From: an uncultured bacterium
GTDB taxonomy: Bacteria; Patescibacteriota; Gracilibacteria; Absconditabacterales; Absconditicoccaceae
DNA: 35,138 bases
Direction: 5' to 3'
Assembly (NCBI GenBank): GCA_937872535.1
Contig: CALMTC010000013.1
Coordinates: 1-35,138 of the forward strand
In this document: one piece after another, positions 18,605-34,832 of the stretch
Numbering within the stretch: position 1 is the first letter of the stretch
Layout: each line of letters opens with the position of its first letter
The notes under the pieces: model-generated
What the model saw: only the letters and a program-made list of their open reading frames with translations
Told to the model about the DNA's origin: nothing
Databases searched by the model: none
Made by a program: the position numbers and the translations under genes

Positions 18605-18656
18605 ATTTTATATAAAGGTCTGGAAATTTTATATAAAGGTCTGGAAATTTTATATG
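18605..18656 (+). repeat. 21-bp tandem repeat, two full copies plus a partial
   Basis: ATTTTATATAAAGGTCTGGAA occurs at 18605-18625 and, identically, at 18626-18646, and its first nine bases recur at 18647-18655. A TATAAT hexamer (18661-18666) follows 8 bases before the hddC start. The repeats lie between the NUDIX promoter and hddC and could be binding sites for a regulator of either. Confidence 0.85.
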
Positions 18657-18674
18657 AATATATAATAAAAATAA

Positions 18675-19379
18675 ATGCAAATTGTGATACTAGCGTGATG
18701 ACTTGGTACGAGACTAAGACCTATTACTGAGACAATCCCAAAACCAATGGTCGAAGTAAATAATAAGCCATTTTTGGAATATCAGATTCTTATGCTGAAA
18801 AAGTACTGATTCAAAAAAATTCTAATGTTAATCGGTTATAAGGGAGAAATGATTGAGAACTATTTTCAAGATGGAGAAAAATACTGAGTAAAGATAGAAT
18901 ACTCCTACGAAGGAGATGAGCTTCTTTGAACATGATGAGCTATTAGAAATGCATACTCAAAACTTGAAGATAACTTTATTGTCATCAATGGTGATACCTA
19001 TCTTGATTATGATTATCATCATATGATAGATCTTTATCAAAAAAGTGATCTTGCCTGATACTTTACAGTACTCAATAATGTTAAGTATGATAAAAGTAAT
19101 CCAAATCTTAATAATAATCTACGAGTAGAGAATGGTCTCGTAAAAGACTACATAAAAGGTATTAATGATCCTAAGTTCAAATATTCTGATTCTGGTGTCT
19201 ATTTGCTTCACAAAAAAATATTAGAAACAGTCGTGCCTCATCAAAAACAATCTCTTGAATCTGATGTTTTGATGCCACGAATCAAAAAGTGACTTATAGG
19301 GGCATTTGAAGTAAACGCTCTATTCTATGACATTGGTACCTTTGAGAGATTAGAATTATTTAAAAATGTAATAGTATAA
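18675..19379 (+). CDS. hddC: D-glycero-D-manno-heptose 1-phosphate guanylyltransferase-like
   Basis: A 234-residue nucleotidyltransferase. The N-terminal signature VILAGGLGTRLRP uses UGA for both glycines of AGG. KPMVEVNNKPFLEYQI, ELLGTGGAIRN and the metal-site VINGDTYLDYD follow. The fold is that of sugar-1-phosphate nucleotidyltransferases; by itself it could be a glucose- or mannose-1-phosphate enzyme. The HddC assignment rests on the next three genes, which supply exactly the preceding steps to D-glycero-alpha-D-manno-heptose 1-phosphate. It would make GDP-heptose. It is followed after 2 bases by the kinase gene. Confidence 0.85.
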
Positions 19380-31311: not shown

Positions 31312-33783
<2,472 letters not shown>

Positions 33784-33803
33784 AATTTTTTATACAACAA
33801 TAA

Positions 33804-33833
33804 ATCATATCCCCAGAAGTTTACTTTTTTCAA
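33804..33833 (-). promoter_or_regulatory. Promoter of gyrA
   Basis: On the minus strand TTGAAA (33828-33833) and TATGAT (33804-33809) are 18 bases apart, about 20 bases before the gyrA start. Confidence 0.45.
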
Positions 33834-34011
33834 TCAACCAATCAAGAGAAGCTAAAAATTCCTTTTACTAAGCGTTTTTTGAGAAACATTTATCTTCTAG
33901 AAATTTTTTTAAGCAATTCAGTTAAAAAAAAGAATCTAAAAAATTCTGCTTGCACAACTTATAATTTCAAAACACAAAAAAAGTAAATTCAAAATCTAAA
34001 AAAAATTTTCA

Positions 34012-34335
34012 TTCTGCGAAATATAAAAAATAAATTTATGAAAATGAATTTTTTCTAATCAAAAAGCTACTTTTGAGAGAATGAGAAAAAATAATACAAA
34101 AATCTTATAAGAAAAAATTTTCTGAAAAACATAAAATATAAATTTTTGAGAGCGAAAATAATGATGTTTAAAAGCTGGATTTGAGAGTATTGAAAAAAAT
34201 ATTTATAAAGAACTAAAAAATTTTTTCTTCTGCAAAAAATAAAATGAAAATTATTGTAAAATGAATTTAATGGCTTAGAGAGCTGATTTTTAGAGATTAA
34301 GAAAAAAATAAAAAATGAAAATAAAAATAAAAAAA
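34012..34335. repeat. Three diverged 108-bp tandem repeats in a long AT-rich gap
   Basis: Units start at 34012, 34120 and 34228, each with TTCTG, exactly 108 bases apart. They align without gaps: AGCT falls at the same offset (about 54-57) in all three, followed by a shared (T)GAGAGnnTnAgAAAAAA-like block. Identity is partial but the spacing is exact. The surrounding gap 33834-34562 is very AT-rich with many stops in all frames and no supported gene. Possible roles are an origin-like region, an untranslated RNA or a decayed repeat. Confidence 0.65.
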
Positions 34336-34562
34336 ATGACGAAAAAAATAATACGACAAATATTTTTCATAATAATGCAATAATTTTTTCAAAAAAGGAG
34401 AAGGAAAGAAGAAGAGAAATGCCTCTTGTGAATTGCTGTTTTGAAGGTATATGAAAAAATAAAAAAATGTATGAAAAAAAAATGAAAACGATTGCATTAC
34501 TCTTTTCAATGACTAATTTGGAGATGCAAAAGATTTTACTTTTGAATAAAAAACCTAAAAAA

Positions 34563-34832
34563 ATGGCTCGATTAACTACAACAAAAGCTCCTGCTAAAAC
34601 AGTTGCTGCAAAAAAACCAGCTGCTAAAAAAGCAACAGTAAAAAAAGCTGTAGCAAAAAAACCAGCTGCTAAAAAAGCAACAGTGAAAAAAGCTGTAGCT
34701 AAGAAACCAGTTGCTAAAAAGACTACAGTAAAAAAAGCTGTAGCTAAGAAACCAGCTGCTAAAAAGACTACAGTAAAAAAAGCTGTGGCTAAGAAACCAG
34801 CTGCTAAAAAAGTTGTAGCGAAGAAAAAATAA
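34563..34832 (+). CDS. Lysine/alanine-rich histone H1-like DNA-binding protein
   Basis: An 89-residue, extremely basic, low-complexity protein made almost wholly of Lys, Ala, Val, Thr and Pro, with the pattern KKPAAKKATVKKAVA repeated. It contains no glycine, hence no UGA. The composition resembles eukaryotic histone H1 tails and bacterial Hc1/AlgP-type proteins, which bind and condense DNA. ATG 34563 (MARLTTTKAPA) is preferred; an in-frame extension to 34467 adds a dissimilar hydrophobic stretch. It is transcribed alone and ends at a strong terminator. With HU in the same window it suggests a role in nucleoid compaction. Confidence 0.85.
   Translation: MARLTTTKAPAKTVAAKKPAAKKATVKKAVAKKPAAKKATVKKAVAKKPVAKKTTVKKAVAKKPAAKKTTVKKAVAKKPAAKKVVAKKK
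34608..34787 (+). repeat. Four tandem 45-bp coding repeats
   Basis: Four consecutive 45-base units each encode a 15-residue AKKPxAKKxTVKKAV block, with a partial fifth after them. Differences are mostly synonymous or conservative (Ala/Thr, Ala/Val). Copy number is likely to vary between strains. Confidence 0.9.

Follow-up and report, generated by a model that had tools for sequence, protein, structure and literature searches.

A diverged three-unit 108-bp tandem repeat upstream of an HC2/histone H1-like gene: a candidate promoter/leader array

The gap between gyrA and an HC2/histone H1-like gene contains three consecutive units of a 108-bp sequence; the 5′ end of the unit corresponds to a motif found throughout the genome, located shortly before the start codons of many genes. 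The arrangement is best read as the outcome of an ancient tandem triplication of a segment carrying a promoter and a 5′-leader, pointing at the HC2-like gene. As a candidate promoter/leader array, it has about an even chance of having kept some activity.

The window analysed is an entire contig (C13; 35,138 bases) of a 1.25-Mb draft genome (G000). In the reading of its open reading frames, the long genes appear only if TGA is taken as a glycine codon (genetic code 25). The gap of interest (33784–34562) has a GC content of only 20%, and is flanked by the divergent gyrA (31312–33783, minus strand; 823 aa, 20 TGA codons; Pfam PF00521, E 1e-160) and by the HC2-like gene (34563–34832, plus strand; 89 aa; PF07382, E 2.8e-12), confirming the location between gyrA and a DNA-compacting protein given in a preliminary description of this DNA. 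The HC2-like gene, the first plus-strand gene downstream of the array, starts some 230 bp from the end of the third unit. The second-best named relative of the GyrA protein came from a Candidatus Absconditabacterales metagenome-assembled genome. A match to the HC2-like protein was found in three of 49 genomes of the family, G000 included. The neighbours of gyrA vary among relatives, and none of those checked had the same gyrA/HC2-like gap.

Self-alignment delimited unit A (34012–34119), unit B (34120–34227) and unit C (34228–34335, with an A-rich tail that aligns poorly), all on the plus strand and each starting with TTCTG, at the positions and with the period proposed earlier. When all lags from 15 to 399 in the gap were scored without gaps, a lag of 108 gave the highest self-match score (23.8) and 216 the second (23.1), the third being 13.4. 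Shuffled AT-rich controls, named beforehand as the observation that could refute the repeat, did not do so: none of 200 dinucleotide shuffles of the gap attained 23.8. In Markov simulations of order 2, 3 and 4 (700 each), the single-lag maximum was attained in 4, 6 and 41 cases, respectively (0.6–6%), while the joint score at a lag and at twice that lag was attained in none of the 2100. The three units are thus confirmed as a true tandem repeat. Their ungapped identity is 62% (A–B), 56% (B–C) and 63% (A–C), with 49 of the 108 columns invariant, in agreement with the earlier view of a diverged repeat that has kept its length. With so little identity left, the repeat must be considered old, and it falls below the threshold of Tandem Repeats Finder.

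The claim that the units keep an exact length without indels does not stand throughout: the 108-bp spacing is exact where TTCTG, the AGCT core or the TTTNAGAG block is concerned. The A/T tract preceding TTCTG differs in length from copy to copy (its first T lies at 34006, 34118 and 34221, i.e. at spacings of 112 and 103), and alignment fails over the last 10 or so columns. Small indels therefore probably arose and cancelled one another, the absence of indels being partly a net effect. The third copy of the block formed by AGCTG, TTTNAGAG and an A-rich stretch lies at 34281–34307 (plus strand, unit C), and the 3′ half probably has a fourth, degenerate copy (AGCTG, TTTTGAGAG and AAAAAATA) at 34431–34467 (plus strand). 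The genome-wide search proposed for the unit returned just the three copies: a sequence-only model recovered those of the array, the next best hit being weak (E 0.017), so that a dispersed element was discarded.

When the 40 gaps of 200 bp or more present in about 375 kb of G000 were compared, that containing the array was one of the few with a clear self-repeat; another, at C11:150095, was judged by eye to be a tRNA gene pair. Short, strong self-repeats were also present in gaps at C16:121265–121553 (lag 131), C11:54535–54815 (lag 32) and C11:197956–198281 (lag 89). Elsewhere in the window, a perfect 21-bp tandem repeat (ATTTTATATAAAGGTCTGGAA; 2.4 copies) occupies positions 18605–18655, in a divergent gap before a gene starting at 18675.

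The 5′ end of the unit corresponds to the motif A6T4-5-N-ATTCTG-NN-AAA, which had 138 matches in G000 versus 9 for the reversed pattern; a related pattern taken from the unit 5′ end, AAAATTTTNNTTCTGCNAAA, had 113 versus 5. The reversed patterns take base composition into account only within a given genome. When the gap was used as the query of a DNA search, it had short matches elsewhere in the genome that had A6T5-TTCTGC in common and adjoined gene starts. The motif lies about 8–24 nt upstream of the start codons of many unrelated genes (for example, at L139:14197–14216 and L146:7274–7310). In about 375 kb of sequence, some 90% of it coding, 27 of 42 matches were intergenic, and those near a gene were followed, 13–21 nt later, by a same-strand ATG. 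A de novo search of 190 upstream regions ranked the motif first, starting near −26 to −29, with the T-tract/TCTG signal reaching its maximum at −20 to −10. Since genes were called simply as ORFs beginning with ATG, some of these distances may be off. A clear copy was present in about 10–15% of the genes having an upstream gap. Since the genes that bear it, such as those for ribosome recycling factor, pyruvate kinase and a pyrimidine-nucleoside-phosphorylase-like enzyme, are functionally unrelated, the motif looks like a general start signal rather than the mark of one regulon. When 48 other family genomes were compared, almost all had it near the control level, the partial exceptions being G025 (26 versus 1) and, to a lesser degree, G024, G002, G039 and G040. 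No description of an A6T5-ATTCTG motif was found in the literature searched.

Within the array, the start-proximal motif is present at the start of unit A as AAAAAATTTTCATTCTGCGAAA (34000–34021, plus strand), an exact match to the genome pattern identified by pattern search, and at the start of unit C as AAAAATTTTTTCTTCTGCAAAA (34216–34237, plus strand); the match to AAAATTTTNNTTCTGCNAAA is exact at 34002 and has one mismatch at 34218. The copy at unit B (34110–34129, plus strand) is weaker, its A/T tract being shortened. A further weak match (34528–34545, plus strand) lies 23 nt before the ATG of the HC2-like gene. Allowing up to three mismatches, the gap has three motif matches, a number equalled in about 3% of shuffles; allowing up to two, it has two, which none of 300 shuffles equalled. 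An ATG at the usual distance was found in unit C only (34244, 16 nt after TTCTG), where it opens a frame of eight codons.

Also conserved in each unit is the TTTNAGAG block, which precedes the next TTCTG by about 47 nt and thus occupies the place expected of a −35 box. The sequence TTGAGA occurs at 34073 and 34181, exactly 108 bp apart, and gives rise to two promoter-like arrangements on the plus strand: TTGAGA-16-TACAAA in unit A (34073–34100), 20 nt before the TTCTG of unit B, and TTGAGA-17-TATAAA in unit B (34181–34209), 19 nt before that of unit C. No good promoter was present upstream of unit A. As consensus matches, these hexamers (scores of 9–10 out of 12) are not above background, equalling both shuffles and the upstream regions of other genes; such matches are expected by chance in AT-rich DNA, and the argument for a promoter is therefore one of layout, not of score. 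Across G000, TTGAC is concentrated about −55 to −80 before starts, where an ordinary −35 box is to be expected. Among the motif genes, the four having the best promoters of the TTGACA type (C11:147308, C16:15940, C11:43857 and C16:64928) show TCTG 13–29 nt beyond the −10 box, and the 19–20 nt separating the end of the −10 region from TTCTG at the two unit junctions reproduces that layout. From the position of TCTG in these four genes, the motif would not itself be a −10 box; the ATTCTG element most likely belongs to the very beginning of the transcript.

These observations can be accommodated by a model in which a segment of about 108 bp, carrying one plus-strand gene-start module, was triplicated head-to-tail long ago, probably by unequal exchange or slippage. 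In this module, a TTGAGA block resembling a −35 box would be followed by an A+T-rich −10 region and, some 20 nt further on, by the A6T5-ATTCTG leader element; the TTGAGA block would be, or would once have been, a −35 box. Today the copies might serve the HC2-like gene redundantly, as tandem promoters/leaders, or might be on their way to becoming relics; in the former case, the array may still provide several starts for that gene (start at 34563).

An array with some remaining activity and a pure relic would have one and the same past, and only their activity today would set them apart. Under the relic reading, to which we give a lower but appreciable probability, a neutral tandem duplication occurred in a relaxed AT-rich gap, included a gene-start motif by chance, and has been drifting since. 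The low identity between units, their unalignable tails, the damage to one of the motif copies, the absence of the unit elsewhere in the genome and the low GC content of the gap all agree with this. Against it, the invariant G/C positions are gathered in three blocks (TTCTG, AGCT and NAGAG) whose internal spacing has remained unchanged despite heavy substitution. The binding array suggested in the preliminary description can still be entertained as such, as a series of spaced operator or nucleoid-protein sites controlling both gyrA and the HC2-like gene, although we consider it unlikely, since the evidence favours repeated promoter/leader modules. In its favour, three small blocks recur at an exact 108-bp spacing between two DNA-topology genes, and the A/T tracts are weakly phased at 10.4 bp (P about 0.07). 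Against it, 108 bp does not correspond to an integral number of 10.5-bp turns, TTCTG belongs to the start-associated motif of many unrelated genes, and the AGCTG..TTTTGAGAG block, also tried as a second dispersed element and rejected, was no commoner than its reversed control in 375 kb with the array set aside.

A coding past of the units, whether as a repeat within a protein gene or as a small gene that was triplicated, appears very improbable. The period does equal 36 codons (108 = 3 × 36), and the minus strand contains a 164-codon stop-free stretch (33786–34562, code 25) of a length seen in just 0.4% of dinucleotide shuffles. Nevertheless, the differences between units are spread evenly over the three codon phases (41, 42 and 45), every frame is interrupted by TAA or TAG in at least one unit, and the units have no start codon in common. 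The stop-free stretch, lacking codon-phase support, is probably an effect of its T-rich strand. A repetitive or structured RNA, also suggested earlier, was discarded: fold z-scores ranged from −1.6 to +1.2, the consensus fold amounted to only −1.7 kcal/mol on the plus strand and to nothing on the minus strand, the analysis of the three units found neither a shared fold nor covariation on either strand, and the array had no match in Rfam. The idea of an origin-related region fared no better. In the 35 kb of the draft genome that make up the window, GC skew follows gene direction, and the cumulative skew shows no switch at the array, being near its maximum there rather than at a minimum.

Most bacteria have GATCACCTCCTTT at the 3′ end of their 16S rRNA. 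In G000 this end reads GACCACCATTCTAACTT, with the tail GACCACCATTCTAAC, and lacks the CCTCC anti-Shine-Dalgarno sequence (C19:54233–54284, minus strand; L189). Among the 12 family genomes in which the 3′ end was caught, G000 included, CCTCC is kept in one (G033); the other tails differ, reading CCATTC, CCATCA, CCTTTC, CCTCTC or CCACCC. Shine-Dalgarno tetramers were not enriched before G000 starts. Genomes of Absconditabacteria (SR1) have been listed as poor in Shine-Dalgarno sequences and lacking CCUCC (PMC10783764). Direct pairing of ATTCTGG with the 16S tail was considered and rejected: by eye it would involve only 3–4 bp, UGG(U)/(A)CCA, and in the units TTCTG is followed by C or A. The Rfam SSU model (RF00177) had no match in G000 despite the 16S 3′ end on contig C19, possibly due to a broken or interrupted 16S gene or to a filter effect.

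As a candidate start signal, the ATTCTG element may help ribosomes to find starts, although this is speculation. A more elaborate proposal would combine a lineage-specific A6T5-ATTCTG leader, acting as a start signal in a bacterium that reads TGA as glycine and whose 16S rRNA lacks CCTCC, with tandem copies that have their own promoters, so that a chromosome-compacting protein would be controlled by an array with several starts; we regard this combination as a long shot. Taken alone, the array is one diverged duplication of a promoter region. It matters mainly for exposing a strong, genome-specific motif just upstream of start codons in a lineage whose anti-Shine-Dalgarno sequence is eroded, which opens to testing the way translation starts are marked in these bacteria.

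Three known arrangements offer comparisons. Like tandem sigma-70 promoters, the array consists of head-to-tail copies facing one gene, and in every copy a −35-like block is accompanied by an A+T-rich −10 region and by a leader; unlike them, its copies recognisably derive from one duplicated 108-bp unit, and its promoters are putative, with consensus matches at chance level. It shares with minisatellite-like intergenic duplications the presence of three non-coding tandem units of constant length, but these are old, being only 56–63% alike, and carry a genome-wide, functional-looking motif. Finally, the absence of CCTCC from the G000 16S rRNA and the lack of enrichment in Shine-Dalgarno tetramers recall the Shine-Dalgarno-independent start regions of bacteria without a CCUCC anti-Shine-Dalgarno sequence, whereas the ATTCTG motif sets G000 apart, since it is near background in almost all the family members tested.
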